Source: Posidonia oceanica
Lineage: Eukaryota > Streptophyta > Magnoliopsida > Alismatales > Posidoniaceae
DNA: 64,000 nucleotides
Assembly (NCBI GenBank): GCA_037176725.1
Contig: JAZBRS010000026.1
Span: 100,051,501 to 100,115,500 of the forward strand
Direction: 5' to 3'
Numbering within the stretch: position 1 is the stretch's first letter; the number at the start of each line of letters is the position of its first letter. The position numbers and the translations under genes are program-made. A model generated the notes under the pieces. The model was not told where the DNA came from, searched no databases, and saw only the letters and a program-made list of their open reading frames with translations. Below, piece after piece: positions 24,553 through 61,629 of this stretch.

Positions 24553-24568
24553 GACGCTAGGTGAACCA

Positions 24569-40810: not shown

Positions 40811-40851
40811 TTTGTCGAGGGGATTACCCAAGGGAGGCAGTAATAAAAAAC

Positions 40852-41495: not shown

Positions 41496-41583
41496 GATCT
41501 CCTCTTGGCTTGAATCTTATAGTTCAAACGTTTATCTCCCTTCCCTTATTGATTTTTGCTTGCTAGGGCTTGTGCTTCTCCTC

Positions 41584-42935
41584 ATGGATTTGAGTGATAT
41601 CCCACGACATGCTTTTCAGGTGGCTGTCTTCTCCTCTCCTTCTGACATGGTGCAACTCCGGCTGGAGGCCATACCCAACCATTTGGCGAACCTAATGGTG
41701 CATGAGAAGGTACTCCTTGTTTTCATCTTTTCCGCATACTCCCATTCTCGTACTTCTGCTGATTTTTCTTTACTTTATAGCGCCTATCTTCTGCCAACAA
41801 TGATCAGGATTCGAAAGCCTATCAGTTGGACTGGGTTCAACAATTCTGCTCTTGGGCTTTGAAGAAGTACCGGGAACGCTTGGAGGAGGCTGGTCTCTGT
41901 CAAGCTCTTCGCCAGCTGTGGCAGCCTATTGACTGGATGGTGCTCTTCGGCCTCTGCGGGCTGTGGAACCCCTTGACTCATACGTTCTTTTCTTCTTCCG
42001 GGGAATTGGCCATTCTCTTGGAGGAGGTGAGCGCCCTCCTAGGTATTCGACATGCTGACCCATCCATTTACTGTAGGGATGCCTTCCTTTTGCCAATCAG
42101 GGTGGTAGGTTCTTTCTCTCTTGTAAAGCGCATCTTCGGCTCTGTTGTTGTGCTAGAGGACCTGGTGCTGGATGGCTGCATCAAACTCTCCTCTTTGTGG
42201 AAATTTTTCTGGAAACAGCGCGACAGCATCCGCTCTGAGGCATCTTGCTTGGAATGTGTCTTCATCCTGATCGGGGGACTGGTGCTCTTCCCAAATGAAG
42301 CTCTGACTATTAGTTCCTACCATGCCGAGCTCATGTGCATCTGCATGCGCAACCCAGAGAAGTGTTTGAGTTAGTCTGTTTTGGCTTTTACCATCTGGGG
42401 TTTATCCAGTGCCTGCCTCAGGGGGCCATTCTTTGGCTCACCGTTCCTAGTTCTGCGCTGGCTGGAGGTGCACTTTCTTCTGCCTGCTTTTGATGCTAGC
42501 CTTCCCTTGGAGGAGCTCATCCGCCGCCTATGCGCCTACGAGGTCAAATCCCAGATGGATTCCTTTAGTCCCCCCTCGTCTTTCAGGACAGTATCTGACT
42601 CGGAGTATTTCCTGATGCTGATTGGGGCAACCGAGTTTGTGAGGTACAACCCTTAGCACTGCTTCTCAATGCTAGGTACTCCTCGGGCTATACCTCCCTT
42701 GCCGCGCTTCTCTGATATGTTTCTCCCGCGCTTGAGGGACACTCCTGGAGACATCATCCAGGTCTTCTATCAGGCTGGTATTTAGGATGGGAAGGGGCGA
42801 AATCGAGTCCTTTCTGCATGGGAGAACTCCAATGCGGACCGTGAAGCCATTTCCCTTGCAACTTATGACGCTTGGTACGAGGGCGTGCGTCCTAAATTGT
42901 TCATTGAATTTCCTTCAAAAAGACAGAAGATGTAG
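41584..42935 (+). pseudogene. Gene A: antisense DUF7745/plant-mobile-domain-like gene in E3
   Basis: Plus-strand gene, antisense to E3 pol. Exon 1 is 41584-41709 (start MDLSDIPRHAFQVAV, 42 codons ending in Lys); a GT-AG intron of 71 bp follows (41710-41780, phase 0); exon 2 is 41781-42935. The core contains DWVQQFCSWALKKY and NPLTHTFFSSSGELAILLEE followed by VSALLGI, the FxF...ELxxxLEE pattern of this protein group. The C-terminal half contains FGSPFLVLRWLEVHF. Stops within exon 2 are TAG 42372, TAG 42654 and one TAG near 42784; the last codon is TAG 42933. An AATAAA follows at 42959. Gene C is a paralogue with an intron at the same place. The function is unknown. Amino acids are conserved enough to suggest it was once translated. 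Confidence 0.78.
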
Positions 42936-43073
42936 TTAGAAATGTATCACTTATCATCAATAAAATTTATCTCGTCTCTTTGGTGTTTTTTGAATGAATA
43001 TGTATGAGTTGAACGAGAATATCAGAATTCAGAACACTTCCCTAAACTTAAAGCATTGTACGCCCAACATGGA

Positions 43074-43204
43074 GCGTCCAACGTTATACGCTGAAAAGCC
43101 AGCGGCTAACGTTTTAACTCGCAAAACGTTGAACGCTAGCTTTCTCGCGTATAACATCCTTTCTTCCCGAGGCGTTGGACGCTAGGATTCACGTGTACAA
43201 CGTT
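43074..43204. promoter_or_regulatory. palindromic motif cluster upstream of gene B
   Basis: GCGTCCAACGTTATACGC (43074-43091), GCGGCTAACGTT (43102-43113), AACGTTGAACGC (43125-43136), GCGTATAAC (43147-43155), GTTGGACGC (43174-43182) and ACGTGTACAACGTT (43191-43204). The cluster ends 6 bp before the TATA box. Confidence 0.78.
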
Positions 43205-43210
43205 AAAAGG

Positions 43211-43218
43211 TATAAAAT
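43211..43218 (+). promoter_or_regulatory. TATA box of gene B
   Basis: TATAAAAT, 105 bp before the ATG at 43316 and just after the motif cluster. Confidence 0.65.
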
Positions 43219-43315
43219 CCTCGTCCTACGCCACGGGTGGCCATCTGATTTCTTCCTCCTTTCTTCTCTGGCGATAGGGATTACTCCGGCGAGCTTCCCC
43301 TTCACTCCGGCGAGC

Positions 43316-46300
43316 ATGGAGAGGTGTATCTCCCAATTCTACATGAGGGCGGCGAAGCAGGCAAGAATCGGGCCCTCCCCCTTCGGCGAGGTGGCGGCGA
43401 AAGCATCTGCTGGGGCTGCTGCTGCGTGGGGGACGGCGGCGGGGGTGGCGGGAAGCACCGGTGAGGGCGTGGCAGGCACGGTGGAGGCCGGTGGTGCCGT
43501 GGCGATGCCCGGGGCGACGTCCGGTGGCGATGCCGAGGCTGGGGGAGCAGAGATGGGGGCTACCGTGGGTGGTTCTGCGGAGACCGAGGTGGTGGTTGGC
43601 GACGACGCCATGGCGGCAGAGGCGACGGCCAGTGAGGCCACCGTGGGGGAGAGCTCTAGTTCTGGGGAGGCCGGAGAGACGATGGTGGAGGCAGTCTCCA
43701 GTGTGAGCACTTCCTTCAGCTTGGAGGATTTCGAGGAGACAGTCTCAAAGGTAAGGCCTGAGGTTAGCCCAGACGAGGCAAGGCCCTTGGAGGTGCCTGA
43801 GGTGAGGCCAGTCGACCCCCTCCTTGCGTAGTTAAGCAAGGATGACAGCTGGTGGCGAAACATAGTGGACTTCGTCCAGCAGGAGGCGGAGGGCGTTGCG
43901 AGGGATCCCCCAGACTACTGGCGGGAGCAGATCCCCAGAGACAAGGTACAGGCATCGGGACTGCGTAGGGACGCGTCCCGATCAGAGTACGCCACTGCCA
44001 CACTGGCTTCCCAGGGGCAGGTATACATTTTTCATTCTTTTCTCCTTATTTTGTTCAATTATTTCATCCTGGCTGATAGTTTTCCTGCTTGCTTGTAGAA
44101 TCGAGCACCGGCCGTGACCCGCTGCTACTAGGGTCAGGTCCGCCGGTCCTACGCTTTGTTGGCTTCTTTCCAGCAGGAGCGTCTAGATCAGATGGGATTT
44201 GGGCATTTCTTGTCCATCCTGGACTTTCCCCTCCGTCCGATGTTTCTGGAGGCGATTGCAGAGCGGTGGAGCTTTCGAACGAGCTCGATCGTTACTCGGG
44301 CGGGCGAGTTTGTCCTCTCTCTTGAGGACATGGCACGGTTGACTGGTCTCTGGGTTACGGGCAGACCAGTGATAGGGAGAGTGCGCCTGAGCTACTTGGT
44401 TTTGGCACAGGAGCTCGTGGAATGCCAGTTAGCCATGAGCAGGGAGCAGCTCATGGTGATTACTTCTGCGGTTCACCGAGTGAGTGAGCTGGCGGAGACA
44501 GTTGATGGACCAGGTGTGGAGGCTGACCAGCAGCTGCAGGCCTTCATCTTGGTGCTGTTCGAGGAGGTGCTCTTCTCGCACTCCTCCTCGAAGCTCTCGG
44601 CGTGGTTCCTTCCCCTTCTGGCAGACCTGGAGCATGTGGGAGAGTACGCCTGGGGTGCGGCGAGCTTGGCGCACCTGTACTCCACCCTGTTCCACTTCAC
44701 CGACAGCAGTTCTCGCCAGCTGGGCGGGAACCTGCCTTTCCTTCAAGTAAATCTGCATATTTAAGCTTGTATTGAATATTATATTCTTACTAACAGGTTT
44801 CTTGTTTCGCGTGCAGATGTGGGCACGGGACCACTTTGCCTTTCTGCACCCTGCCCCTCCTCCGGTTCCTCCTACCGATGTCCCCTTTCCCCGGGGACTA
44901 TTTTGGGTTGCTGCTGAGCAGGCCCTCGAACCTGCCGACAACAACCGCTATGTCGATCGTCTACTTTTTGAGCTCCTTGTCCCGGCTTAGGTAACTTGCT
45001 TCTTTTAATTTCAGCTTCTATTTATTTGTTTATGCTGCTTGCTGACATGTATTGCTCTTTTCAGGTGGTTTGGCGTCCCTATGCTAAGGGAGAGCATGTG
45101 GACGTCCCCGAGATTGCCCGTGATCGGGCCATTTTCGACCGGGATGTATGGATCCACTACTGGAACCACTGCCACTTCCAGTAGATTACAGGGCGGTACG
45201 ACAGCTAGGGCACCGGCAGGCTCGGCCTTCACCTTCTCCTCACTGAGTTTGGCAAGAGACATGCGGTGGGGGTAGCCGTGCTCGCCACTGGGTGGACGTC
45301 TACGGCCCACAGCTCCTGGACTGGGCCCGTCGTGGTTCCCCCACTCCGACGGATGCTACAGAGGAGGACGAGGTGGACTGGGCTGCGTCGATAGACTGGG
45401 AGTTTTCCTCTCTGATGATCTTCCACCGGTCCCACTTCCTTGGGCACGGGAACCTTCCTTTGGGGGACACTGATCCTGAGGAGGCGGTGGTTTCCTGTGC
45501 AGCCCTGTTGGAGGAGGTTCAGTCTTCTCACGCCCAGCTAGAGATAGCAGTGAGCTTTTGAATTTTATTTTGTATATTGTTAATTCAATTTGGCTAACTG
45601 GCTTTCTTTCTTTTGCAGCTCAAGGCGGCTGATGAGCGGGCTCAGCAGGAGGGCCATTTGACCCAGCATCTCTCCGCTCTAACCGGGGAGATTGACCGTC
45701 TATGGGCCTCTGCCTCTCAGGTATTTTTTCACAAGTAGCTTTTGTAATCTGGCTATGAATTGCAACTGACTTGAATCCTCCTTTTCATCCTTCGACTAGC
45801 AGCGCTCCACCTCCGGACCGCTCAGAGGAGATCTCCCATCTCTAGGAGAAGGTAAATATGCTTTCATTTTGTTTCTGCTTTTGAAATCCCCTTGGTCCTA
45901 ACGCCATTGCTTGCAGGTCGCTTATCTAGAGGGCGAGTTGAGGGAGCGGGTTGGTGACTTCATAACCGCCAACTCTGCCGGGAGGTTAGAGGAGCTAGAG
46001 GGGACAGTCGCTGCTAGGAGTGCTCGGATCCAGGAGTTGGAGCAGCAGGTGGCTGATAGGGACACTGAGATTGCCCAGTCTCAGGTGGTATGATTCGGTT
46101 CGGTGCTTCTTTATGTCCTCTTTGTCCTTGCTTGTATCTGACATTTGGATTGTTTCCCTCCTCAGAGCATGGTGGGGATTATCTCCCAGCTTGAGTTCGA
46201 GCTGGGGCACTACCGGAGGTTTGCCTTTACGGCCGGTGTTAGGCTCGGGGTGCCTGTTCCTCCTGTGTCGAGCTGCTGGTCAGGTAGCCACCACTCTCGA

Positions 46301-46426
46301 TCCGTTTCCAAGGCCCTATTAGGCGCTTCAGTTCGACAGTCGCCTCGTCCCCCTACTGCCCCTTCTTCGGCTCCTGCTCTAGCTCCTGCTCCAGCTCCTG
46401 AGGGTGAGGGAGAGAGTGCTCCCTAG
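43316..46426 (+). pseudogene. Gene B: antisense plant-mobile-domain gene with coiled-coil tail, eight exons
   Basis: Start MERCISQFYMRAAKQ. GT-AG introns, nearly all phase 0, are at 44021-44098, 44747-44816, 44991-45064, 45550-45618, about 45721-45800, 45852-45916 and 46088-46165 (65-80 bp each). Exon 1 encodes an Ala/Gly/Val-rich acidic segment. Exons 2-4 encode a plant mobile domain: FGHFLSILDFPLRPMFLEAI, SLEDMARLTGLWVTGRPV, YAWGAASLAHLYSTLFHF, VVWRPYAKGEHVDVPE. Exons 5-8 encode heptad-like helices (EGELRERVGDF, RIQELEQQVADRDTEI) and a Pro/Ala tail. Stops are TAG 43829, 44129, 44988 (at an exon end, before GT), 45182 and 45206; a frameshift lies near 45250. Host PMD proteins (MAIN, MAIL1) act in TE silencing; whether this protein does is unknown. 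Confidence 0.8.
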
Positions 46427-46906
46427 CTTTTGTACTTCAGGGGTATGCCCCGGTGACTTTGTAGAACAATTGTATATTTTGAAATGATATATATTTCTGC
46501 ACACTCAGTAAACTTGTCAAATACTTCTTTTAAATTACCTTTCTCAAAGTTAAAGTGAGCTTAAGTGACCAATATGATAAAATAATGGCCCTTAATTCAA
46601 ATTAACTTGAAACCAGCATATTCAAGTGAGATAGTATGTAAATGACATAGTTATAAGGAAAGATTTCACCTGGAAGCTTAAAAATTGAATTTTGAAGTCG
46701 TTGTCGCCTTAACGAGCCATTAACTTGATGAAACAAGCAACCAGAGATTCCGACTGGCCCGGATGTCCAAGAAATATGAAACCAATGCACGCACGTGTAT
46801 TTCAACCTAGTTAAGCCTCTAGAATGGGCAAAATGGGCACATGCAACTCAATCACGGCTCAGGGGGCAATCCAGCCAAGTTTAGTGACTTAAGTCACTGA
46901 TAAAAT

Positions 46907-47057
46907 GTTATACGCCTCATCTGCTGTGGCCAATGTTATCCGCTTGAATATCTGCGTCCAATGCCGGTAGCTGCTTTAAATGTTATATGCCTCAAATGGC
47001 GCGGCTAATGTTGGACGTGCACTGTGTCGCGTACAACGAAGCCTGGTCGCGTACAAC
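46907..47057. promoter_or_regulatory. palindromic motif cluster upstream of gene C
   Basis: GTTATACGC (46907-46915), GTTATCCGC (46935-46943), GCGTCCAAT (46954-46962), GTTATATGC (46982-46990), GCGGCTAATGTTGGACGT (47001-47018) and GCGTACAAC twice (47029-47037, 47049-47057). The cluster ends 112 bp before the TATA box. Confidence 0.77.
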
Positions 47058-47169
47058 GAAGCGAGCCTAGAAACTTTTCTTTCCTTTTCTGTTCATAGCT
47101 AATCTTTCAGAATGCTTGCGAAATTTTCTCAATGTCCGCGTGAAAGATTTCCGACGATCCTCCTGTGCT

Positions 47170-47177
47170 TATAAAAA
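47170..47177 (+). promoter_or_regulatory. TATA box of gene C
   Basis: TATAAAAA, about 105 bp before the ATG at 47275, matching the spacing seen for gene B. Confidence 0.62.
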
Positions 47178-47274
47178 CTTGGCCACCCCTTTGATTTTCA
47201 TGCATACTTGCTCCTTTTTCTCTCTACTGATTTCTTCCTGATTTTTGCTTCTTCCTTCCCTCTCTTTTGCTTTC

Positions 47275-48614
47275 ATGGCTTCTAGCTCAGTCCCCAATGT
47301 CTTCATGCACAACAAGAAGGGGGTCGTAAAACCTTTGGAAGAGATTGAAGGGCATATGATGTCCCTTATCAAGACGGGGAAGGTATGATCTTCTTCATTG
47401 GTCCCTTCACACCCCTTTGTTCCTCATGCTTCTGAACTTCTTTGTAGGAAATCCTCAATTTTACCAAGACACCTTGCTTTGACAATGATTTCCCCTACTA
47501 CTCCACTTGGGTGAAGGACTTTGTGCTTTGGGCTCAAGAGAGGAAATCTGTTTTGGCCTGTACGTGCTTTGATGGACTTCTGGATTTATTGGGCACAAAC
47601 TTGGACTGGCCCCTGCTTCATGCCACATGCGCCTTCTGGAGTCCTGAGACTCATACTTTCTTCTTTGGGGGTTGTGAAGCGACAATCCTAGTAGAGGATG
47701 TTCACAGCCTGCTTGGTGTAACTCAGATTAGAGCGGCCCGGCCAGATATTGACTTCCCATTGCCGTATGGAACAGCGGATATGCAAACATATATAGACCG
47801 TATCTTCACCCTTCCGCCTACCTTCCCAATGATCAGAGGTCGCAAACTCAACTTGGTGCATTTGTATTTCAGCTTCCGGCGGATTGAGGAATCTGCCTCT
47901 CAGGATTAGCTGTTGGTGTGTCTGCATTTACTGATTGGAGGCCTTACTTTATTTGTCACCAAGGATTTCTCCTTGGATGTCTATCACACTGAGTTCTTGA
48001 TAGGCCTTACTGAGCATTTCTGGCGCTCTCCTTTAGTGGCCATTCTTACTGCCACGTATCTTGGCCTGACCAGTGTTTCCACCGGAGGGGATTTTGTAGG
48101 CTCTCCTTTCCTTCTTTCCAAGTGGCTGTAGGTCCATTTCCCGAGACTTGGGCCTATGAAGACAGATTTGATTGAGGAAAGGGTTTGCTCTTTGTCTGCT
48201 GCCCCTATTGATATTTCCGCACCTTCCACGTCCCTTTCTCATAAGCAACAGGCACGAGGTTCTTCAGTTGAGTTGGAGCTGATAGGGCCCACCCACTTTG
48301 CAGTGTACAACTCCCATCATTGCTTTGAGATGGTGGGGCAGAAGAAAGGGGTGCCGCCTCAGCTGAGCTTTATTCCTCGTATTCGGGTTCGGGAGCGTAG
48401 TCTTCCATCTGATGCAGTAATGGTGTACTACATTCGGACTCTCTGGTAATCTCTGGACCGCCATGATGATTCAGAGGGGCCATCAACTGCTCGTTGCTGC
48501 CTACCACGGGAGGATGCGCATTGGAAGTGGTATTCAAAGCTACTGCCCAAGCCCGAGGAGTGGGTTGAAGTGTTGGGCGTGCTGTGTAGAAAAAGGAAGA
48601 AGATGATTAGATAG
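47275..48614 (+). pseudogene. Gene C: antisense DUF7745-like gene, paralogue of gene A
   Basis: Exon 1 is 47275-47382 (MASSSVPNVFMHNKKG, 36 codons ending in Lys), a GT-AG intron of 65 bp follows (47383-47447, phase 0), and exon 2 is 47448-48614. The core has WVKDFVLWAQERKSVLACTC and SPETHTFFFGGCEATILVED followed by VHSLLGV, aligning with gene A; the intron position is the same. The C-terminal half has FVGSPFLLSKWL then VHF, again parallel to gene A. Stops are TAG 47907, TAG 48129 and TAA 48447; final TAG at 48612. It ends with a basic tail (RKRKKMIR). It lies just beyond the 3' end of E3 pol on the opposite strand. Its role is unknown. Confidence 0.8.
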
Positions 48615-48838
48615 GCAATCATTGTAATTTTTATTTTTGGGGACCATGTATCTTCTTCAGGGAATATATATATTTCATTTTCATCCTTGTTCATGTGTTT
48701 TGAATTGTTTTGAGTTTAGAAATACTCCCTGGTGGCTTTGATATTTGATCGAGGGCCTTCTGTCCAAAATCTGCAATTTAAGTCATAGTTAAAACGTAAG
48801 ACGCAGAAGATCAGGTGTCCAACATCATTCCGTTGATC

Positions 48839-48875
48839 GTTATACGCTTCAGATGGCGCGTCTAACGTTAGACGC
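48839..48875. promoter_or_regulatory. palindromic motif pair 3' of gene C
   Basis: GTTATACGC and the perfect 18-bp palindrome GCGTCTAACGTTAGACGC. This variant has CT/AG at the variable positions on both arms, so arm changes are paired. Confidence 0.72.
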
Positions 48876-49359
48876 TGATATTTGCTCGTTTAACACCCCT
48901 GGACTGTTTTCCTGCATTACCTTAGCAAATTTGTTAGTCCTTCTAGGGGTATGATTACCCCTAGTCCAAAGTAACTTCTGGAAACTCAGAAATATCTTTA
49001 ACATTGTGAAATTAGCATGGTCACAAAACACTTGGTAACAACCTATATACAATGCATAACTTTAAGCAAACCTAATGCTATGAATGGGAAAGAAGTCTTA
49101 ATGCAATGGAGAAACTTAGGTTTTGAATAACAAGTATTGGCCTCAGCTTTGTTGTCTAAAGATGATATGCCAAACGAGGGACTGTCTCTTCTTGAGATCC
49201 CAGTCTTAGCTCGTAGGCGAATACCAAGCGACTGTCCTGAATAGGAGGGGTTGAGTACGACGCAGAGTCGTAAAATGTCCTAGATTTCGCATCACTAGCC
49301 TTTACTTGTTATCAGTTTCATGAGATGATGTTGGTTGGGTAAATTTTACTCTATTCACT

Positions 49360-49510
49360 ATTTTTGGATTTTTGATTTTATCATTTTTTTGGATTTTTGA
49401 CTTTATCATTTTTTTGGATTTTTGACTTTATCATTTTTTTGGATTTTTTATTTTTGATTTTCGATTTTTGATTTTTTTTTAATTTTTGACTTTATCATTT
49501 TTTTTGGAAT
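49360..49510. repeat. AT-rich ~25-bp tandem repeat
   Basis: About five imperfect units of TTTTGGATTTTTGACTTTAT. Simple low-complexity expansion; no function inferred. Confidence 0.8.
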
Positions 49511-50285
49511 TTTGATTTTATGGGAGATAAAGAATCCTCCGGGATGTTGGGAAACTGGAGACCTCATGGTTGGAAAACCTTGACAGTTTGGTCCCTTGTG
49601 CATCCTAGAGTCAGAAAATACCATGGGCTTACTTTGGCACCTAACTACCCCTAGACCTAGGCCTCTGCCCCTTGCCTCTCAGTGTTCAGTGCAGGATGTG
49701 GGTAGAAGGAAAGTCCATGCCCTATCCTAAGATGTTGACTGAATATTTGAAGCCTAAACCCCTCCTAGTTCAAAGTTGATTCCTACTGCGCTTAGTATTC
49801 CCCAGCTTTTCAGTTTTTGACTCTTGGACAGCTTTTTTGCTGCCGTCTTTTCCACTCTCTTTCTTTTTCCTTGCACATGGACAGCTTCTTTGCTGCCTTC
49901 TTTTCTGACCTTTTCACTTTCTTTTCTGGGTACTTTGGCAAGTAGTCTCACCCCTTCTGAGCGCTCGGTCAATGGATACTCGTTCCTTGACGAACCGAGA
50001 CACTCTTTTATTTGGTACACTCCCCTCTTTTCTGCGCTTTTACGTTTTGGCCTTAGAAGCCTACCCAATTTGTACTAGGGTAATGCGCCTGACTCGAGGA
50101 ATGTGTGTGGTCTTGTTATTCATGAACGGGGAGGGGGCCCCTTATGATTTGCCTCTATCTCAGTGTGGGACCATTTCCTTTCCTTCTCCCACAAGGTGTT
50201 TGTGGGGTGAGGCTAAGGTAAGATTTCTAGGCTTCAACAGCAGAGGGCCCATGAGCACGGGTAGTCTAATGGCTCAGTGTGCATA

Positions 50286-53200
50286 TCAAGGGTAGTACCT
50301 TTTGAGGTGCAGTACATTCCAGGGGTATTCAAGCCTAGTGCCATCCTCTCTGGCCAAACAATAGGCATTGCCTGGATATGCCTCAACCACCAAGTTTGGT
50401 CCTTCCCAATTTGGTTTCAGTTTCCCATGCTTGCGAGGAAGGATTTCTTTAAGCACCCAATCACCAATATTGAATTTACGTTCAATTACTTTCTTCTTAT
50501 ATGCTCTTGCAAGTCGTTCTTGGTAGAGGCGTGCATGCTCAACTACTTGCAACCGCTTCTCATCTAGTAAATCCTATTGTAGACTTAATAATTGCCTCTT
50601 ATCCTCGGCAGTTATCTCATTGTCGAGTTGTATCCTGGATGAGGGGAGCATGACCTCAAATGGGACTACCGTCTCCATACCATAAGTAAGCGCAAACGGG
50701 GTTTGGCCCGTAGGCGTTCTTATGGAGGTTTGATAGGCCCACAAGGTATCAGTTAGCTTATCTGTCCAGTCATGTTCCTTGGCTCCTTCTACCATTTTCT
50801 TAAGGATTCGGATTAATGTTTTATTAGTAGCTTCAGCTTGTCCATTACCTTGCGGGTAATAGGGCGATGAATGATGCAAATTGATCTTAAACTTCTTACA
50901 GAGCTTTCTGAAGTCTTGGGATACGAAGATTGCGCCATTGTCTGCTACCAATTTCTTTGGGATCCCGAACATTAAGATGATATTCTTCCGCACGAACTTG
51001 CAAAGATTTGAAGCTTTGATTTCAGTGAACGCTTCTGCTTCAGCCCATTTGGTGAAGTACTCAGTGGCTGTGAGGATGAACCTATTCTGCTTTTCAGTGT
51101 CGAATGGTCTGACGACATCAAATGCCCACATAGAGAAGGGCCACACTGCTTGAGTCAGATTCAACTCTGATGCTGGTGCATGTATTCTGTCTGCATGGAT
51201 CTGGCACTGCTTGCACCTTTTCACCTTATTTGCGCAATCTGCCTCCATTGTGGGCCAGTAGTATCCTCTACGTAATATCATTTTTGCCATGAATTGAGAA
51301 CTGATGTGTCCTCCACATATGCCTTCATGCATTTCTCCGATGATAACTTCAACTTCCTCATAAGTGACACAGCGCAGCTCTATTCCGCTGAAGGACCTTT
51401 TGAAAAGAACCCCGGCTCTCATGAAGTATCTTGTAGCCATCTTTCGAACTACCTCCTTGTCTTGTGAAGTTGCGTAGTCGGGGAAGATCCTGTCTTGAAT
51501 GTAGTTCTGGATGTCAAAGAACCATGGGTTCCCGTCATCCTCTATGTTGTAGCAAACTTCAAACATGCCTACTCTTGATTCCCCAACTTTTTGTCTAAAC
51601 TCCACGGCCCATGGCTCTGTTGAGTCAATGGCAGGTATCCCGTGTTGCTGAACCATTATTGTTTGCTCCCGGATATTGATGGGGAACTCAATTGAGGAAG
51701 CCAGCGAAACGAGAGCATCCGCTAGTAGGTTATGACTCCGAAGGGTGTGGACGTACACCACTTGCTGAAACCATGCCAATAGGAGGTGTGCAATGCCCTT
51801 GTATTCTTCTAGCCTTGGGTTAAGGGTTCTATACTTGTTCAGAATTTGTCTTAGAACCAATTGGGAGTCTCCGATGAGTTTCAACCGCTTTGCCCCTAGC
51901 TCCAGTGCTAGGCGTAGTCTGAGGATCAAGGCCTCATATTCTGCAACATTATTGGTATTTACGGCGAAGTTTAGCTGTACGGCTCAAGGAATGAGAACTC
52001 CTTCCGGAGTGAGAAGTGCTACTCCGATGCCTGCCCCTTCTCTGTTGAGTACTCCATCATAGTAGAGGGTCCATTGTTGAGTGGGAGACTCGATGGCCTG
52101 TATTTCTAGTATTTCCTCATCGAGGAAGTCTGTTCGGACTGGTTGATAATCTTCTATTGGGAGATCTGCCAGGTGATCTGCAATGGCCTGCCCCTTGACT
52201 GCCTTCTAGGACACATATTGCAAGTCGAATTCAGTGAGGAAGAGTTGCCACCTTGCCCACTTTCCAGAGAGGGCTGGCTTCTCGAACATATATTTGATTG
52301 GGTCCATTTTGGCAATGTAACAGACTTTATGGGCTAGGAAGTAGTGTCTCAACTTTTGAGATGCCCATACTAAGGCCAAGTAGTGCTTTTCTATGGCTGT
52401 ATACTTCTCCTCATAGCCCAAGAAAGTTCTACTCAGATAGTAGATAGCTTTTTCCATCTTTCCATTCTCATCATGTTGAGCTAGCACTACCCCTATTGAC
52501 GATGCAGTGGCTGCCACATAGAGTAGCAAAGGCTTCCCTGGCACAGGTGCTGATAAGATTGGGGGAGTCATGAGATATGCTTTGAGTTCATCAAAAGCTT
52601 TCTGGCATTTCTCATCCCAGGTGAATTCCCTTCCTCCCTTCAGTAACTCATAAAATGACTTACATCGATCTGCATGCTGTGAGATGAATCTCTTGATGAA
52701 TTGTAAGCGGCCAATAAGTCCTCTGAGTTCCTTGATGTTTCGGGGTGGAGGCATCTGTGCTATTGCTCTGGCCTTCTATGGGTCCACCTCGATCCCTCTT
52801 TTGCTGATGATGAAGCCTAGTAGCTTCTCGGCAGTTACCCCAAACACACATTTCTTTGGGTTCATTTTCAACTGATATTGCCTTGCTCTGCTCAGTATCA
52901 TTCTTAGCACCACAAAGTGTGCCTCCCTTGTTCTTGATTTGACCAAGATGTCGTCAACATACACTTCCATGCAATCGTGCATCATGTCGTGGAAGATGGC
53001 CATCATCACTCTTTGATATGTTGCGCCGGCGTTCTTGAGACCGAATGGCATGACTACGTAGCAGTACGTCCCTCATGGTGTGATGAACGATGTCTTCTCT
53101 TGGTCCTCCTCTGCTAGCTTGATGTGGTTGTAACCGGAGAAACCATCCATGAAAGATAGCATCTCAAATCCTGCTATATTGTCCACTAGCAAGTTAATAT

Positions 53201-54110
53201 GTGGCAAAGGGAAGTCGTCCTTGGGACAGGCAGCGTTGAGGTTGCGATAGTCAATGCAAACCCGAACTTTCCCGTCCTTTTTGGCCACTGGTACTATATT
53301 TGAGACCCAGCTGGGGTACACAACTACTCTGATGAATTTTGCTTTGTGGAGCTTGTCAATTTCTTCTTTGACTTTGAAGGTGAGTTCTGGCCTTAGTCGC
53401 CTCAGCTTCTGCTTGACGGGCTTGGTTCCAGAGTTTAGTGGAAGCAGGTGTTCCACTACAGCTGATTGCAATCCAGGCATATCCTCGTATTTGAAGGCCA
53501 GCACATCCAGAAATTCTTTCAAGATTTGGACCATTTCCTCCCGCTCTTCTGGGCTCAGGCTTGCACTTATGAGTATTGGTTTTGGCTCTTCAGTGGTTCC
53601 CAGGTTGACCTCCATGGTCTCCTCCTCAGCTGCCTTGGTTTGCTCATCATATTTATCCATGAGGTGCTTAAGGAAGTCTGAATCTGCCTCTTGATCTTCT
53701 TCCTCATCACTGCAGCTAACCAGCTCATACACCTCTATTCCTGCACACTTCCCAAACCTATCAAATTCTTCTACTAGGAAGACCATGTTAGCAGTAGCCA
53801 GCTCCTAAGGCAATGCCTCCGTGTATGGACATACGCGCACAGTTTTGGAAGCGATGGTCGAAGTTGACCACGAGCTGCTAGAACTAACATGGTGATCCTC
53901 TCCCTTATTGAAAGCAGAAAGTAAATTACTTTTATTCCTAGGAAATGAAAACAATGCAGAATTAAACAAAGTTTTATTTACAGCATCTAGGGGGATGCCC
54001 CTAGAGTTACCTCCATCAGTAGAGGTAGGAGCCTCTCTAGGCAGGCTCGTCAGAATTGACGTTCCCATCATCTTTGAGAAGCTCATAGTTGGCCCCTGGA
54101 TCGGGGTCAA
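50286..54110 (-). pseudogene. pol: E3 pol: RT, tether RNase H, second RNase H, integrase
   Basis: Reads in one minus-strand frame. The RT lead-in (LAFKYEDMPGLQ) and RT start lie in 53786-53073, ending at TGA where the family has Trp (ITPWG). The rest of RT holds YVDDILVKS (52900s). TAG 52776 follows GIEVDP. The tether RNase H (KAIYYLSRTFLGYEEKYTAIEKHYLALVWA, 52754-52206) ends at TAG where relatives have Gln. The second RNase H has YYDGV, NVAEYEA, GDSQLV and LLADAL. Integrase in 51929-50574 keeps its HHCC finger (MHEGICGGH, CKQCQ) and DDE residues (AFDVV, VADNGAIF, GQAEATNK). A C-terminal segment at 50552-50286 ends HLKRYYP. Damage is modest: about six stops. Confidence 0.92.
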
Positions 54111-54198
54111 CTTCAGGTCTCTGAGGTTGCAGACCTTCTGAGAGATCAGCCGTGAGGCGGCGGACCTTGTCTACGAGTCGTTGTGACTTGCGTAGAAT

Positions 54199-55992
54199 TT
54201 ACCCCGGCCTTTGCTCCAAGGAGGAAAAGATGTCCGAAGCTGGAGGAGGCGGAGGCTTCGAAGCGGTAGTGCCGGAAGAAGAGGGAAAAGCAGGAAGAGG
54301 TGGCCGATCCGGAAGTTCGGGGGCCGCGGCACCGGAAGAAGAGGGCGAAGAAGAAAGAGGTGGCCGATCCAGAGGTTCGGGGGCTGGTGTGCCTAGCAGT
54401 GGTGGCGGTGATGTTGCAGTCTGACCTTCGTGAGGTTTTGCTGGCAACTCTTTTGCAGTCTGACCTTCGTGAGGTTTTGCTGCGACAGTCTGGCCTTCAT
54501 GTGGCTTTGCTGTCAACTCCCTTGCAGTCTGACCTTCGTGAGGTTTTGCTGGCAATTCAAGTGTTTGGAATAAGCCGGAAATGTTTACGTCGGCTGTGTC
54601 CTCTTCACTTTGGAGAGTGTGTTTGGTTGATTGCACTAAAATAATATTTGCCAGGGGAGATGAATTCGGATTGAATATCCCTACGCTGGTAAGATGTCCT
54701 TGTAGATTACATTGTAATGGTCGTCTGTCGGGGAACTGGTCGAAACCGAGTCCTCCCCTTCCTTCTCTGTCACAAGCCTTCACTGGCTCCTTCATTCCCT
54801 TTCCTTCTGGGCCTAAGCCCTGGCCTTTCTTGTAGCCAATTCTTCTCATGATTTCCCACCCTACATTCATGGATGGTCCTTTGTTTTTGGAGGGTTGCCT
54901 CTTCTTGTGAAACAGCCTAGGCCTGGCCCACTTGTCCCTCAGCTCGACCATAGATACGACATTCTTGCCTTTTTTGGCCTGGGTCAGCTTTTCTCGCACA
55001 CTGAACTGGTGCGGCAGGTATATCACATTTGCCTCTGCTTCTTGGCCTGGTATGTCTCCTGCTATCTTGATGATTTTTCCATCGTGTGGGAATTTCAGGC
55101 ATTGGTGCCGAGGAGATGATACTCCTTTTAAACTGTCTAGCCATTGTCTCCCCAGGATGATCTGATATGAGACATTGACGTCTATGACGAATAGTTGGGT
55201 TAGAACCTGAGCTAGTCCTATCCCTATCTTTGTGGTCCACTTGCCGTGTGCTTTTCTCTTACTATCATCATACCCGACAATCGTCATGTCAATGGGGGTT
55301 AAGGAGGCCTCATTCACGCTCAAGGCTCGTATTGTATTCAACGAGCAAATGTTCATTGATGCACCAGTATCTATGAGCACTTCAGAAATTAAGTGATTGT
55401 TTATAGAAATGGTTACATTCAATGGAGCTTTTCTCCTCTCTATTGGTGCCAACTCGCTATCAGCAAAAGTAATGATTGGCTTTACAAAGGCTGCTGCAGC
55501 TATGATATGGAGTTCCTCCGCTGGCATGTCCAGGGCAACTTGGGCCTTCTCTAGCAGTTCTAGCAGAGCTTTTCGGTGTTCATTTGAGCTGTTTATGAGG
55601 TCATAGATCGAGATCCTGGCTTGCGTCTTTTTTAATTGCTCTAGGATGTCATATTCTGCCGACCCGGGTCCTACTTCAGGTTTGACCGGCTCTGCTTGCT
55701 CTGCTGGTGGCATGATTCGATTTGACAGCCTCCCTCCTCTGGTGATGGGTGCAGCAGCCTCATTTCCTTTAGATGCTCCCTTCTTGAGTGGCCAGGCGAA
55801 GATGGACTCCTTTCGTATAGATTTGCCAAGCTCTAGTGGCTTTGTGGTCCTAGCTCGCTGCTCTGTTGGCACTTGGAAGATTGGGGATGATGGAGTAGTA
55901 GTGCTCTGGAGTACTGAAGTGCTAAGGGCTGGCAACTGATCTGATGGTGGCCATGCAGCTCTGAAGATTGGGGAGACTGGCAGAGACAGCAA
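54199..55992 (-). pseudogene. pro: E3 second protease (PR2), G-patch and KPHEGQT repeats
   Basis: Same frame as PR1, separated from it by a TAA at 56032. Helical segment ARISIYDLINSSNEHRKAL (about residues 125-143), catalytic EVLIDTGASMNIC with D208 (codon 55371-55369), and C-terminal YQIILGRQWL. This is the counterpart of the E1 protease, which is preceded by the same helical segment. After it comes a G-patch, IGYKKGQGLGPEGKGMKEPV. Then four AKPHEGQT repeats (about 54420-54560) and a proline-rich tail with two PDRPPL units. TAA at 54199 interrupts the linker, which continues to about 54040. DTGA is intact, so PR2 is the better candidate for the active enzyme. Confidence 0.87.
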
Positions 55993-56031
55993 CTTGGGCT
56001 CCCACAGCAGTGATTTTCTCCATGGCAGACG

Positions 56032-57114
56032 TTATGACTCCTCCTCTTCCCGAAGGGTTGCAATTTGTGGCTCTGGCATCTTGAATGTGCATAGAATCCC
56101 TGGTCGGTTGGCTGGAATGCTGATGACCGCTCCTTGGTATTTGAATTTTAGCAATTGATGAACTGAAGATGCTACAACCCCGACCTCCGCTAGCCAAGAC
56201 CTCCCTAGGATGAGTGGCTCTAGGACTTCCTCCTTCATAATGATCATCGAAGTGATACTGGTCAAAGGACCGACTGTGATTTCCATGGGTATTGTCCCTA
56301 GTGCTAGCTTTTCTTTCTGATCAAACCCCGTGCACATAAATGGAGTCCTATCCAGCTCGCCCTCATTTAGCCCCAAGCTCTGGAGTGTGGAGAGAGAACT
56401 GAGGCTTCGGCTTGCTCCAATGTCGACCAACACTCCTTGCAGCACATTATCATTAATTCCTACTGTGATGACTAGTGGCAGCTCTTGCTTATGTGGGGGT
56501 GGAAGCTCTGAATCCTTGAAGACTATTCTTTCCCGTTCAAATTGCTGATTGGCTTTTTGAACTTGGCCTTCTTCTTCTATTTCTTCTTGTGGCTCCTCCA
56601 CTACTGTGGTGAGGTTGAACTGGCTAAGGAGCTCCTTCACTGTTAGTCCTTCATCTGCCTCACTGTCCCAGTCATCATCTGAGATTATTCCCCATTGTTC
56701 AGCTTGATTATCCCAGTCCTCTGCTAGTTCAACATGGTTGTCCCAATCCTTTGATGGATTAGAGAGCTGCTCGTCCTGGAATGCCATGACTTGATGCTTG
56801 GGGAGAGGGTCGCTGTAGACCTGTTGAGATGTCCCTGTTTGCTTTCTTTGTTTGGCTCTTTTGACCAGGACATCCCATTCAAACACATCTGCCTCCACCA
56901 TGTCATAGACTATGTCCCTGAAGATCCAGCAGTCATTGATGTTGTGACCATGCATTCTATGGAACGGGCAGCATTTGTTCCGATCACAATTTGGCAATTC
57001 AGGCCTAACTGGTGGGAATTTGAGCGCTTTTGCTTCTTCTAGTTCTATGAACATGTCGGCCAGCGTGACTGGTAGAGGAGGGTAATGGTCTCTTTTTCCC
57101 TTTTTGCGTGGCAT
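56032..57114 (-). pseudogene. E3 Gag C-terminus with CHHC knuckle and extra protease (PR1)
   Basis: The CHHC knuckle CPFHRMHGHNINDC is at residues 49-62 (56970-56929), followed by an acidic linker. A complete retropepsin-like domain follows: IVFKDSELPPPHKQELPLVI, then VLVDIGASRSL with D231 (codon 56424-56422), and EPLILGRSWL. The flanking sequence matches PR2 (ITFADSELAP...), so the two domains are duplicates. The catalytic triplet reads Asp-Ile-Gly where Asp-Thr-Gly is canonical, a one-base change. The ORF overlaps the end of the upstream gag frame by about 70 nt. Confidence 0.82.
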
Positions 57115-58703
57115 TGGAGGGGAACATTATGACACCCGCTCCCATTCCCAATGTTGTTGGGGGGATTTCGGTTGTTGGCCTGGCCATTTTGATTACCCCT
57201 GGTCCATTGCGGCCGGGGAGCATTCCACATTGGGCGGATTTGCTGCTGAGGAGGAGGATTATTCCATGCCTGTTGCTGCTGGAGAGGGCGGCTCCAAGCT
57301 TGTTGTTGCTGAGGAGGAGGGTGGTTCCATGTTGGCTACTGTTGAGGGGGAGGGTGGCTCCAGGCTTGCTGCTGAGGAGGAGGGTGGCTCCATGTTAGCT
57401 GCCGTGAAGCTAGTATAGCCCTTTGATCGAATGGCCTGGGTGCGGGGCTCATCTTGTTGACGACTCCGGTCACTTCCTCTACCACCTGTGCTTTCCAGCT
57501 TTTCTTTGGCTCCTCCATGAATTCATGCAAGTTTTCTTTAACGGAGGCCGCCACTTCATATAAAGCCATAACATTAGGGCAATAGGCATTCACTAGCCCC
57601 TTCTTCATTAGTCCAGTTGTGTTTGCAATGAGGTTTTGGACCACTTGTCTCTCCGGAATGGTCAGTCCTGATCTGGCTGCCATTTCCCGCCATTTGTTGG
57701 CGAATGTAACCCAGCTTTCGCCTTGCTTCATGATGTCCTTGCTTAGGTCGTGGAAGGTTGGCTTTGGATCTATCTTGTGCTGGTACTTTGTAAGGAAGCT
57801 CTCTCTGATCTTATCAAAGCTGCTGAGGTCTTCCTTGGAGAGAGTGAGAAGCCAATCCATTGGCTCTCCTTCGAGTGAGTAGAAGAACAGGTGTACCACA
57901 AGCCCCAAATCATGGAAATAGGGGGTTGACTCCATTTGGAACCGCACCAGGTGACTGAGTGGGTTGGTGGTTCCATTGAACTTGGGAGTCTTTGGGTACT
58001 TGAAACCTGGAGGTAATATAAATGGGGGGAACCGGCTCATGTCAAAGTTTGCCGAAGCCTGGGTATGCACCCCTAATGCACTGAGCATTTTTCTCATCTC
58101 ATCCAAATTTGTTATCCCGACTGATGGGGTCGGGACATGTGAATTGAAGGACGGATGGTTCTGCTGCTGATAGAGGTAGCTGTTGCAGAAATGCTGAGGT
58201 GTGACCTGCTCGTATCGCGAGGGAGATGCCTGGTGATAATGATGATTCGGCCGAGGCTGATTGCCTGCCAGGGGTGGTCGGGGATGTCTTAGATAGACTC
58301 CTTCCTTGTATTCGCCATGTGGCATGTAGTTGTGTTCCTGAATCAAGGAGTTGGCCCTTGAGTTATATGCTCCGTTGAGTGCTGTGCCCTGTCTTGGGTG
58401 GTTTGTGTCCGGCAGTGGGTTGCCATCTAGTCCCTGGTATAGATCTTCAGGGGGATGGTCCGCAACTGGCCTTCGTTGTCCTTCACCGAAGTGGGGTGCC
58501 TGCTGGAGGTTGTTTAGACATGGCCTCGTTTGGGCTGATGTCTCTTTGTTTAAGAACTGGTACATGGCTCTGTACTGGATTGAATCCGGATCTAAGACTT
58601 CTCCAGTGATTGGTTGGTAGATTATAGGCTCCTCTCCCGAGGTACTCGCAAAGTCTGATCTCTCTCTTTCTGGCTGATCAGCTTCATGGATTTGATTCAT
58701 CAT
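57045..58703 (-). pseudogene. gag: E3 gag
   Basis: It starts MMNQIHEADQPERERSDF at 58703. The first ~230 residues are polar, with H/Q/N/P-rich stretches. The capsid-like core has FPPFILPPGFKYPKTPKFNG, LGLVVHLFFYSLEGEPMDWL and FLTKYQHKIDPKPTFHDLSK. After about residue 430 it enters Q/P/W-rich repeats (WSHPPPQQQ), interrupted by TAG at 57336, and the frame runs to 57045. The CHHC knuckle lies in the next frame (57114-56032), so a frame change occurs near 57115. Whether this is decay or programmed is unresolved. Confidence 0.85.
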
Positions 58704-58760
58704 TGCTGCAGCTTGTGATAATGAGAATTGGCTTTAAGGCGTAATACGCCACAGTATACG

Positions 58761-58799
58761 GCGTATAATGTTGGACGCAAGATATCAGGCGTTCAACGT
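58761..58799. promoter_or_regulatory. palindromic motif cluster before E3 gag
   Basis: GCGTATAATGTTGGACGC (58761-58778) and GCGTTCAACGT (58789-58799), about 60-95 bp upstream of the gag ATG. Looser GTAATACGCC lies just before. Confidence 0.72.
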
Positions 58800-59141
58800 C
58801 CCTAGCTGTATTTTCTCCAACTCTTTTCCTGTCTTCTTTTTTCTTCTTAGCCTTTCACTCTCTTTTTTTGTTTTTGACTTTTCTGATTTCTTTTTTATTT
58901 TTCTTTTCGTTTTTTTTCTGCTTTTTCTCTTTTTTTTTTTCTTTTCTTCTTCTTCTTTTTTTTTGAAGGATTACAAGTGCGAAGAAAGGGAAATTACAAG
59001 AACTTTAATACAGATTCCTAAAAAAGTAAAAAAAAACTGAGTTGCCCCTAACTGATATTGTCACTGTTTTGGGTTTTTCAATGTCTTCCCTGCCAAACAA
59101 ATCACACAAAGGAGCTAAAATATGACAGCCACACAGAGAAT

Positions 59142-59202
59142 GCGTTAGACGCTTAATCGGCTGCATACAACATTATACGCAGGGATCTCAGCGGCCAACG
59201 CC
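59142..59202. promoter_or_regulatory. palindromic motif cluster in E3 leader
   Basis: GCGTTAGACGC (59142-59152), GCATACAACATTATACGC (59163-59180) and GCGGCCAACGCC (59191-59202). Confidence 0.72.
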
Positions 59203-59871
59203 CTGTTTCAGAGAACTGTACAGCAACACTTTCAAACAGCGATTTAAGATTTTAATTTTGGTTTTCGCTTTGAGATTAGTGTTTTAAACCTGCTGTAGCT
59301 CTCTGGGTTCCTTAAGGCTTAGGTATGGCTTTTTTTTTGGATTTTCTAAGGCTCCTCACAAGATGGGTGAATATGATTGGTACTACCCCCTACCTCAACT
59401 CCTGAGGATGCTAGGGGGAGCCTGAATACACTTAGGTCCCTACCCCATAGAGGTAGAGCCCAGCATACTCAGAATTGATCGGGTCGCTCACGTATGTACA
59501 CACAAAAGAAATAAACAAACCACCGAAAGGGGGAGGGAGGAATACAAGTCAAAGCTTGAGGTTCTAATTATCTCTCACTAAAAGGCCAAGGAAGAAGGAG
59601 GGCCCCTAGCAAAAGACAATGACAATACAAGTATCTTTTCTAAGCCCCTTGCAACAGAGGTGCTTGGGACCTAGATGGTTACTTATATAACCCAAGAAAT
59701 GACACAAGCAATTTAGTTCCCAATGAGGGCCATGCAAGTCATATAAGAAAGATGTGATTTTTTTTTGTTTAATTTTTTGCAAAGCACCCAAAGGAACTGA
59801 AGTTCTTCGGGCCAGTTATAACAAAGAAAACTAAAAGAAATTTTAAAACAGAAGGGTTTCTGTTCAATAGT

Positions 59872-59930
59872 CGTTAGACGCGGATATTGCAGCGTCCAAT
59901 GTTAGACGCGCCAGATCACGCGTATAACGT
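59872..59930. promoter_or_regulatory. palindromic motif cluster in E3 leader, near LTR
   Basis: CGTTAGACGC (59872-59881), GCGTCCAATGTTAGACGC (59892-59909) and GCGTATAACGT (59920-59930). Confidence 0.74.
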
Positions 59931-60168
59931 ACTAATAGTATTTTTTTCAGAAAAACAACAATTTTTACAGATCACCCCCACGCCCGAGAATCCAGAGAGA
60001 AGGGGGTGGCGATTTCAGTTATTGACACAAAGAAAACAAACAAAAAGAAAGTCACGACGCCTCAAAACACAATGAGGAATTTTGTCACTTCTCTAAAACA
60101 TACGAGAAAATAAGAAACTAAAATTAAACTAAGAATGTCAATAATGAAGGAGGAAGAAGAAAGAAAGG

Positions 60169-60180
60169 GTTACTTACCTT
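60169..60180 (-). promoter_or_regulatory. candidate 5' splice site in E3 leader
   Basis: The minus strand reads CAAG/GTAAGTAACC, about 45 nt after the LTR, an excellent donor match. No acceptor was assigned. It could define a leader intron like those reported in Ogre elements. Confidence 0.4.
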
Positions 60181-60201
60181 GCACGGGGGCACTTTTAGCC
60201 A

Positions 60202-60218
60202 TCCCACCGTGATCGCTA
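60202..60218 (-). promoter_or_regulatory. putative E3 primer binding site
   Basis: TAGCGATCACGGTGGGA, three bases after the LTR end, loosely resembles the TGGCGACTTCGCTAGGGA of E2. The first TGG is TAG here, so this is tentative. Confidence 0.45.
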
Positions 60219-61035
60219 GACTGTGGATATGGGGTTTTTGTGGAGCGAGGTGATGCAGATGATGGATGGGAGGTTTAGGGAAAGAAGAAGGCTTCTTTTT
60301 GGCTCCCTCTTTTGCTCGCTCTATCTTCTCTTTCTCGAGGTCCTCCTTCTTTATATCCGACTCTGTCACTCCACGTGTGATGGAATCGGTGTGATCGCCA
60401 CTCTCGGTTCGCTTTCGCCGGCCCTCGAGACGCCTTTGGGGAGATGTAGTGTGGTTGCGGGTTCAGCTACCTTGGGATAACGCCAGCATTGCCCAAGGGT
60501 GCCCGTGCTCGATAAGCTCTTTCTTCCTTCTTCCTCCTTGTATGACAAATGTTAGCAAAGCAAAACAAACAAGACAATATAAAAATGGATCAATATGTGT
60601 AGTAATCTATCCAGAGTTAGTAGAAATGAAAGTAAAGAAAACGTAGTAAGATACGTACCCGAGGGGTTTGATCCCCCCGGTTGCAAATGAAAGAGATGTA
60701 TGCCTAGTTAAAAGTATATGAACTTGAAATAAAAAAGCTTGATTATACTACGGAATTAAACATGCAATATCAGAAAAATAAAAAGGAAATGAATGAAATA
60801 GAGTCTCCTTTGTCTATGCACAAAGTGCAAACTGTGTTGGTATGAAGCCAATAATGACAAAAGGATCCTCAAGCTTTTCTAAGACTCTCCTTCTTTCAAA
60901 AACTCTCCTCTTTTCAATTCTTCAGGACCTCACTTCTCTAAGATTTTCAATCTCAAGAGCATGTGAGTTCCAAAAGTTTCTTAGCTTCTTTTCTCTCTCA
61001 AAATTCCGGCCATGAACACTGTGGGGGTACCCCTG

Positions 61036-61044
61036 CTTTTATAG
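61036..61044 (-). promoter_or_regulatory. TATA box of E3 5' LTR (genomic RNA promoter)
   Basis: CTATAAAAG on the minus strand, identical to the copy in the 3' LTR. It would initiate the gag-pol RNA about 30 bp downstream. Confidence 0.78.
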
Positions 61045-61107
61045 AAGCAAGGGAGGAACAAAAAAGGACACAAATGCCAAGTCAGCAGAGTTTCCTGTTT
61101 TAGAAGT

Positions 61108-61401
61108 GTTATACGCTGGAAAACCAGCATATAACTTTATAAGCGAGAGAACTCGCGTACAACGACCTTTGAGGCATAACTGCCAGGATCAAAGAAGATT
61201 CTCCAATTAAGGAGTCTTTAAGTGCGATTAAACTCGACTTTGATGGCTTTGACCGGTCAACAGGTTCCAAAGAAGGCAAAAATATGATTTCTGGATTAGG
61301 CCAAATAAGGAAAGCTTTGGCTGACTGGATTGCCACGTTGGACGTTGGAAAGCCAGCAGCCAATGTTAGCCATTGTAAAACCAGCGACCAACGTTGTATG
61401 C
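61108..61401. promoter_or_regulatory. palindromic motif cluster upstream of the E3 promoter
   Basis: GTTATACGC (61108-61116), a decayed GCATATAACTTTATAAGC, GCGTACAAC, GTTGGACGT (61337-61345) and GCGACCAACGTTGTATGC (61384-61401). These are homologous to the 3' LTR copies, with different decayed positions. Confidence 0.75.
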
Positions 61402-61629
61402 TGAGAAGCCAGCGGACAACACCCTTAATCAGCTTGACTTCAAAATTTGGTCAGGACGTGAAGAACACTCAAGTTACCAACATTTGGGGCTTAGAAAGGT
61501 ATAGCATTTTGGACTTGAGAGGAACATTTGGCTCAAGTGAGATTCAGAAATGGGTGGAGGGCCTCTAATAGCGACCTAATGCAAGAGACTATCCTAACAT
61601 GAAGGGAGTGCCAAAACGGGGTATCTACA

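Follow-up and report, generated by a model that had tools for sequence, protein, structure and literature searches.

VANDAL transposons of Arabidopsis encode VANC, a protein carrying DUF1985 that binds short motifs repeated in the non-coding parts of its own VANDAL family, the motifs occurring as C- and T-type variants by sub-lineage (PMC5735166). The nearest functional parallel among retroelements is foamy virus Tas, one factor that acts on the long terminal repeat (LTR) promoter and on an internal promoter. In the Tat lineage of Ty3/gypsy elements, Ogre and Retand have a second RNase H (aRH) between RNase H and integrase; a survey of Retand describes antisense open reading frames (ORFs) with Transposase_28 and family-specific tandem repeats (PMC11963269), and the plant mobile domain (PMD) is reported in 57% of Ogre elements (PMC6317226); Transposase_28 is reported in 23% of Retand elements. 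In Arabidopsis, PMD proteins have roles in silencing transposons and regulating genes, with direct DNA recognition left open, and a promoter motif named 'DOWN' is linked to the PMD proteins MAIN and MAIL1 (PMC7156037). Here we analyse a 64,000-nucleotide stretch of Posidonia oceanica DNA (assembly GCA_037176725.1, contig JAZBRS010000026.1, positions 100,051,501 to 100,115,500 of the forward strand; the whole stretch is called the window), in which a palindromic motif recurs in E3, a Tat-lineage element, and in the LTR of E2, an Ogre-like element into which E3 is inserted.

E3 resembles the VANDAL system in that a short motif is repeated in the non-coding parts of one element family, the motif letters differ by sub-lineage and the element encodes a candidate binder; the PMD proteins of E3-type elements are, in addition, weakly similar to DUF1985. 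VANDAL is however a DNA transposon with YAGTATTAY motifs in one orientation, whereas E3 has inverted half-sites in a fixed four-part module; its candidate gene is PMD rather than VANC (DUF1985, DUF287), a protein that removes DNA methylation. The likeness to foamy virus Tas is one of proposed function; the internal genes of E3 run antisense to pol and carry PMD. E3 shares with Retand and Ogre its Tat lineage and the presence, between pol and the 3' LTR, of antisense ORFs and repeat arrays. Its antisense ORFs, unlike those of Retand, have PMD and not Transposase_28 (no match at E<=1 in the ORFs scanned), and what the available text describes for Retand and Ogre is family-specific tandem repeats, not a common dyad module at promoters; in PMC11963269, words starting 'palindrom' stand in the reference list only. 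The 'DOWN' motif is, by its description, likewise a promoter motif linked to PMD proteins. Five literal motif strings gave no match in the literature searched, and no paper on the theme, judged by titles and abstract starts, describes such a module. The claim of a sequence-only reading of the window, that no such motif is reported for Tat elements, holds within that literature.

The dyad is the centre of a four-half-site module

The sequence-only reading had drawn attention to an 18-bp palindrome and quoted five examples, all of which are present where it placed them. At up to two mismatches, GCGTNNAACGTTNNACGC occurs at 12 places within the window and at 297,069 places genome-wide (2,962,952,704 bases), against 3,252 for the reversed pattern. 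Pairs with the exact dyad spacing and at most one mismatch per half number 46 in the first 282,108 bases; 20 dinucleotide shuffles of these bases give a mean of 0.3, and the shuffle means are no higher than that for either outer spacing described below (this count and the pair counts in 342,108 bases both leave out the overlapping loci L004 and L006). The dyad is thus in clear excess of chance. Its arms are GCGT-N10-ACGC, with an inner AAC.GTT conserved about as well as the arms, and the 7-bp distance between CpG steps that had been remarked on follows from this sequence.

The 18-bp dyad is itself the centre of a larger module, GTTNNACGC-N10/11-GCGTNNAAC.GTTNNACGC-N10/11-GCGTNNAAC, of 56-58 bp. 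The 9-bp half-site is GCGT-H-Y-AAC, often with CCA directly before it, and the half-sites are ordered <- N10/11 -> <- N10/11 ->, so that dyads usually have one outer half-site on each side. Since the dyad is the centre of four half-sites, many of the 'half-sites' mentioned in the sequence-only reading are outer arms of modules. We scored modules over 28 specified positions and called them at 21 or more matches, which gave 99 modules in 328,144 bases (a count that takes in the overlapping loci L003/L004 and L005/L006) and none in the same bases reversed.

The spacing rule is strict. In 342,108 bases, outer pairs with at most one mismatch per half number 62 at spacer 10 and 69 at spacer 11, with none at 8, 9 or 12-16, while inner pairs number 63 at spacer 0; the next commonest inner-pair spacings are 21, 22 and 29 (14, 9 and 8 pairs). 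Counts of the exact CC-type outer pair over the whole genome are 13,952 for N10, 82,515 for N11 and 67 for N12 (controls 0 each). The spacer letters are diverse in the places listed, which indicates that the length and not the sequence of the spacer is kept. Among 82 modules scoring at least 22/28, the spacers are 10/10 in 33, 11/11 in 34 and mixed in 15, those of E3-type elements being mainly 10 bp and those of E2-type LTRs mainly 11 bp. Modules are present in six of 20 stretches of 10 kb taken systematically at 5-Mb steps along the first 97 Mb of the contig that contains the window, and together with the genome-wide counts this extends the observation beyond the window. In a scan of viral contigs that may omit near records, the half-site, N11 and dyad pattern gave no match.

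The window holds 18 modules at 21/28 or better; each belongs either to E3 or to the E2 LTR piece, the restriction that the sequence-only reading had proposed. Within E3, which is on the minus strand, the 5' LTR has modules at 61365-61420 (22/28, spacers 10/10) and 61108-61163 (25/28, 10/10), and the 3' LTR has one at 32472-32527 (26/28) and two overlapping at 32698-32781 (22 and 23/28). The 5' untranslated region (UTR) contains two overlapping modules at 59873-59956 (27 and 21/28) and one at 59144-59199 (25/28); a further module, at 58741-58797 (26/28, 11/10), is just upstream of gag. Two overlapping modules (48810-48894; 21 and 27/28) lie between the end of pol and a gene in antisense orientation, gene C; two more (46907-47037; 23 and 24/28) and an extra half-site (47049-47057) lie upstream of gene C, and two lie at the start of antisense gene B (43055-43229; 26 and 23/28), the second of these having a degenerate right half that contains a TATA box. 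None of the 15 E3 modules is in a stretch taken as coding, with gene B counted from 43240. The E2 LTR piece has one module at 24549-24606 (23/28, 11/11), whose first 5 bp overlap the end of the LTR of a neighbouring Ogre, E1, and two overlapping modules at 25510-25596 (21 and 24/28, 11/11).

Conservation of half-sites and lineage-specific letters

When 5' UTRs were aligned, the modules were found at the same places in E3 and its relatives L016, L003 and L008, and two of them in L007. We tested 12 pairs of sequences, with modules called in the first sequence of each, and counted identities in specified half-site letters, in spacer plus N letters and outside the modules, in that order. The deep pairs, 5' UTRs of diverged subfamilies, gave 51/56, 29/56 and 898/1314 (E3 versus L008), 50/56, 22/56 and 1179/1653 (E3 versus L007) and 53/56, 37/56 and 974/1244 (L008 versus L007), that is, identities of 0.89-0.95 for half-sites, 0.39-0.66 for spacers and 0.68-0.78 for flanks. 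An intermediate pair, E3 versus L003, gave 52/56, 45/56 and 1142/1335. With a looser module cut-off the counts were 85/98, 53/98 and 855/1269 for E3 versus L008 and 63/98, 39/98 and 863/1254 for E3 versus L007, where the third module was unaligned. Pairs of E2 type gave 64/70, 62/75 and 953/1402 (L032 versus L031), 121/140, 122/150 and 1132/1547 (L032 versus L013), 23/28, 18/29 and 480/660 (L032 versus L006), 23/28, 26/30 and 770/1177 (window versus L032) and 22/28, 27/30 and 959/1198 (window versus L031). Among E3-type elements, the deep pairs therefore keep half-sites better than either spacers or flanks; several E2-type pairs keep them better than flanks only. In three young pairs the counts were 49/56, 52/56 and 1224/1289 (E3 LTR versus L016), 46/56, 47/56 and 542/602 (E3 LTR versus L004) and 43/49, 39/51 and 429/481 (gene C promoter versus L009). 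In the two young LTR pairs, 12 and 15 half-site letters differ, 6 and 7 of these through CpG transitions, which indicates that modules in old copies are exposed to deamination.

Could such a pattern arise neutrally, as a tandem-repeat or copy-number effect in which LTRs carrying the motif are simply common and a 28-bp unit is duplicated? The E2-type LTR is indeed very abundant (13,712 first-look candidates, of which 40 were scored), and a 28-bp gap, equal to one module register, separates E3 (48790-48830) from L034 (1228-1354) in alignment; modules may grow or shrink in whole steps of 28 bp. Within one element, however, module spacers and flanks show no homology to each other (0.27-0.36 identity; 0.27-0.35 for 50-bp flanks) while the half-sites stay, and the constraint in deep pairs and the absence of modules from coding stretches largely contradict a neutral origin, which we rejected as barely credible.

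A second possibility is that the dyad acts as an RNA or cruciform hairpin, with a 6-bp stem and a palindromic 6-nt loop, for instance to help the genomic RNA dimerise or be packaged. Perfect dyads exist, some of them in the 5' UTR near gag, and the arms carry matching N pairs in 45 of 82 dyads when pooled, against 33.3 expected. When the spacer classes are separated, the match falls to 11/33 dyads in the 10-bp class (permutation mean 6.5, p=0.043) and 25/34 in the 11-bp class (mean 24.3, p=0.43), so that much of the pooled excess reflects a difference between lineages, and the proposal of the sequence-only reading that changes in one arm are often matched in the other is borne out weakly. Near-permutation matching suggests that each half-site is read separately, as by protein subunits. 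A hairpin would also leave the outer half-sites and the fixed 10/11 spacers unexplained, and modules occur upstream of TATA boxes as well. As compensatory pairing is close to the permutation level within spacer classes, we rejected the hairpin and regard it as quite improbable.

Modules might, alternatively, serve host silencing or chromatin, as the target of a repressor or in nucleosome phasing. The site is CpG-rich, and in E2-type LTRs module runs recur 218-241 bp apart, about 230 bp, with no homology between the units; intervals of 29, 202, 360-456 and 879-988 bp are found as well, and L022 has one of 7112 bp, beyond one LTR. Elements would be expected to lose a site through which they are silenced, yet diverged lineages keep it, and we put hardly any weight on silencing as its role.

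The N5N6 letters of the half-site are lineage-specific and are common to modules that are not homologous to each other. In the E2 group they are CC in 153 of 179 half-sites, a count that includes the unclassified L001 as well as L022 and L023: when 13 loci were compared with the window and with a solo LTR of E2 type, L001 matched neither, and L022 and L023 matched the E2 type through short stretches. T at N5 is found in 4 of 101 E3-like half-sites versus 16 of 24 in L007 and L008 together, and in 7 of 14 in L034, where all half-sites of two clusters and not scored modules were counted.

Spacers of fixed length and variable letters, half-site conservation in deep pairs, the absence of modules from coding stretches and the conserved layout all argue for a putative protein-binding site kept by selection on the element. 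This reading is well supported. The dimer site under selection that the sequence-only reading had suggested would accordingly stand as to selection and protein binding, with four half-sites as the unit instead of a single 18-bp palindrome.

Promoters, antisense genes and carrier elements

Several E3 modules lie shortly upstream of core promoter motifs. The sense promoter of the LTR has a TATAAAA at 61037-61043 (minus strand; CTATAAAAGC), about 65 bp downstream of the module at 61108-61163; it is the only TATAAAA heptamer on the sense strand of the E3 LTR, with TATAAA hexamers also at 61141 and 60355, and is common to the E3 3' LTR, L016 and L004. On the plus strand of 41500-50500 there are only two TATAAAA, both at module clusters: one at 43211-43217, directly behind the last dyad before gene B, and one at 47170-47176, belonging to gene C and conserved in L009 and L034, which follows the last half-site at a distance of 113 bp and the last scored module at 133 bp. 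In a post hoc test, a random plus-strand position in this interval has a TATAAAA within 120 bp downstream with probability 0.027. The gene C promoter layout is conserved in L009 and L034. The latter, the 3' part of the L008 element, has 71.5% nucleotide identity to E3, and there modules (3111-3270), TATAAAAG (3001) and a PMD ORF follow one another as in E3; its space between gene C and pol also holds modules, again as in E3, and at the gene B promoter it is interrupted by another LTR. In L002, gene A is preceded by an overlapping pair of modules at 1482-1565 and by a weaker motif, TATATTAG. The corresponding place in E3 has a 44-bp tandem array (40846-41488).

E3 carries three groups of PMD-like antisense ORFs, all on the plus strand. 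Gene B (43133-46426) has a PMD ORF at 44132-44764 that matches PF10536 at E=1.9e-26, the only one of the three groups above the Pfam cut-off. Gene A (41781-42656) and gene C (47448-48449) match the same family below it, at E=9e-5 (41781-42374) and E=7.5e-7 (47448-47909), and a further gene C ORF, 48132-48449, has no Pfam match; three antisense ORFs gave no NCBIfam match. The ratio of non-synonymous to synonymous substitution (dN/dS) is 0.14-0.43 for five stretches of the antisense ORFs compared with L002 or L009, and 0.63 for gag and 0.41 for integrase compared with L016 and L032; stops were skipped in these counts, namely one in L002, two in the L016 target and two in the L032 target. On this measure the antisense ORFs look constrained.

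Modules near TATA boxes are also ordinary enhancer anatomy, and the same arrangement would be produced by a host transcription factor, such as VOZ or another NAC-type dimer that recognises GCGT/ACGC palindromes, with separate element families having gained or kept its site. VOZ binds GCGT-N7-ACGC, N8 being reported as suboptimal (PMC6321167), and so has the GCGT...ACGC dyad in common with the module. In agreement with a host factor, E2-type LTR loci and E3 share the module without any blastn match of at least 100 bp between them in the comparison made. The module differs from a VOZ site in its arms, which are 10 apart and not 7 or 8, in a conserved AACGTT centre, the inner AAC.GTT being kept about as well as the arms, and in its four half-sites in fixed register; lineage-wide N5N6 shifts would moreover be odd for one unchanging factor. 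We consider a host factor possible rather than probable and, the different spacing of VOZ sites notwithstanding, a serious rival.

E3 spans 31584-61629 on the minus strand, as delimited by self-BLAST and by its gag, protease, reverse transcriptase (RT), RNase H and integrase domains, and its LTRs (31584-32990 and 60222-61629) are 95.5% identical by self-BLAST. Its genes are gag, two protease-like ORFs, one of them with a G-patch, RT, RNase H, a second RNase-H-like domain and integrase; RVT_3 lies upstream of the integrase domains in the integrase ORF, consistent with aRH. The protease-like ORFs (56032-57126, and 54199-56031 with the G-patch) are about 35% identical over 152 aa and represent a duplicated protease. 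An Ogre-type LTR is nested within the 3' part of E3.

E2 is a minus-strand Ogre-like element of a non-autonomous family, interrupted by E3 and cut by E1; its LTR piece occupies 24554-25828. Its relative L033 shows matches of the ORF1-like and gag-like kinds and, once and over a short length, to an E3 protease ORF; it has no RT, RNase H or integrase match and none to the PMD ORFs. In the two copies examined, E2 in the window and L033, modules are in the LTR only and none is in the internal part. Judged by BLAST ends, a 3.3-kb solo LTR of E2 type with a 5-bp target duplication lies in an E3 relative (L016 9623-10000, L032 1-2931). The E1 LTR end (24553) falls inside the E2 LTR module at 24549-24606, meaning that a module was the target of the E1 insertion; four further nested insertions (in L009, L016/L032, L032 and L034) lie outside modules.

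Other dyads occur in the Ogre repeats. Ogre 3' arrays at 17118-18373 (units of about 30 bp) and 29416-29690 (about 50 bp) have a dyad TGAT-x-N8..10-x-ATCA whose arms change together by sub-array (GATAAG/CTTATC, TGATGA/TCATCA, TGATAG/CTATCA, GATAGG/CCTATC), possibly hairpins or another family-specific site. The 30-bp tandem repeats of Ogre-type LTRs at 37951-38373 and 23460-23843 carry a GCAC-N8-GTGC dyad, exact at nine places and at one, respectively. In L011, which has no module of at least 21/28, a weak PMD-like match (37% over 51 aa) lies at 555-707, downstream of an Ogre integrase.

A proposed regulator of sense and antisense promoters

We postulate that the module is an operator: a sequence-specific protein would occupy its four 9-bp half-sites as a dimer of dimers or, alternatively, as two adjacent dimers, the half-sites being roughly one helical turn apart. 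Such operators would, in E3-type elements, precede the core promoters of the LTR and of the antisense PMD genes, besides lying in the 5' UTR and beside gag; being at sense and antisense promoters, they could place both transcriptions under one protein. Most probably the element encodes that protein, with its antisense PMD products as foremost candidates, and the protein may serve to activate the element or to counter its silencing, in the manner of VANC in VANDAL transposons. E2, non-autonomous and lacking PMD genes, would use the factor in trans through the operators in its LTR. The module, its spacing rule, the signs of selection and the positions are observed; binding, the identity of the binder and the direction in which it would regulate are inferred. 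We regard an operator for a dimer-of-dimers protein, most likely element-encoded, that activates or counters silencing and is used by E2 in trans, as evenly poised between true and false. The more specific version, in which a PMD product docks as a dimer of dimers on the operators of the LTR and of the element's own genes, activating or de-silencing the element, the operator letters having drifted with the protein in separate lineages and abundant non-autonomous Ogre-like elements riding in trans, is a tentative proposal that falls somewhat short of that. A self-encoded factor would explain the lineage-wide letter shifts, the presence of the site before PMD genes and its use by an element without them.

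Several observations weigh against this proposal. First, half-sites in E2-type pairs are not significantly above spacers, and for the window versus L031 or L032 they are no better than spacers. In young pairs the modules are not better conserved than their flanks, and in LTR pairs they are less so; this fits the decay of dead copies, which lends no support, and constraint would then act in active lineages. Second, gene A in E3 has no module upstream, no TATAAAA follows closely on the modules of the 5' UTR or on those between gene C and pol, and TATAAA is absent from the E2-type LTR stretches examined. Third, the match of the gene B PMD ORF to DUF1985 (E=0.0012) reaches 19.3 bits against a cut-off of 35.1; weak matches to DUF1985 are found in 9 of the 23 E3-type PMD proteins in the alignment, the best at E=3e-4. 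A model of the PMD protein, built from the window ORF aligned with 22 of 34 homologues, has a mean predicted local distance difference test (pLDDT) score of 45.6, too poor to use. Lastly, we know of no demonstrated DNA binding by PMD, and a motif common to E2 and E3 is also expected from a host factor.

If a PMD product does bind the module, PMD proteins would gain a direct DNA target. There would also be a retroelement parallel to anti-silencing by VANC, in which a non-autonomous family of huge copy number borrows a regulator. A repeated, apparently selected and very numerous site beside PMD genes turns direct PMD-DNA recognition into a question for the gel shift.

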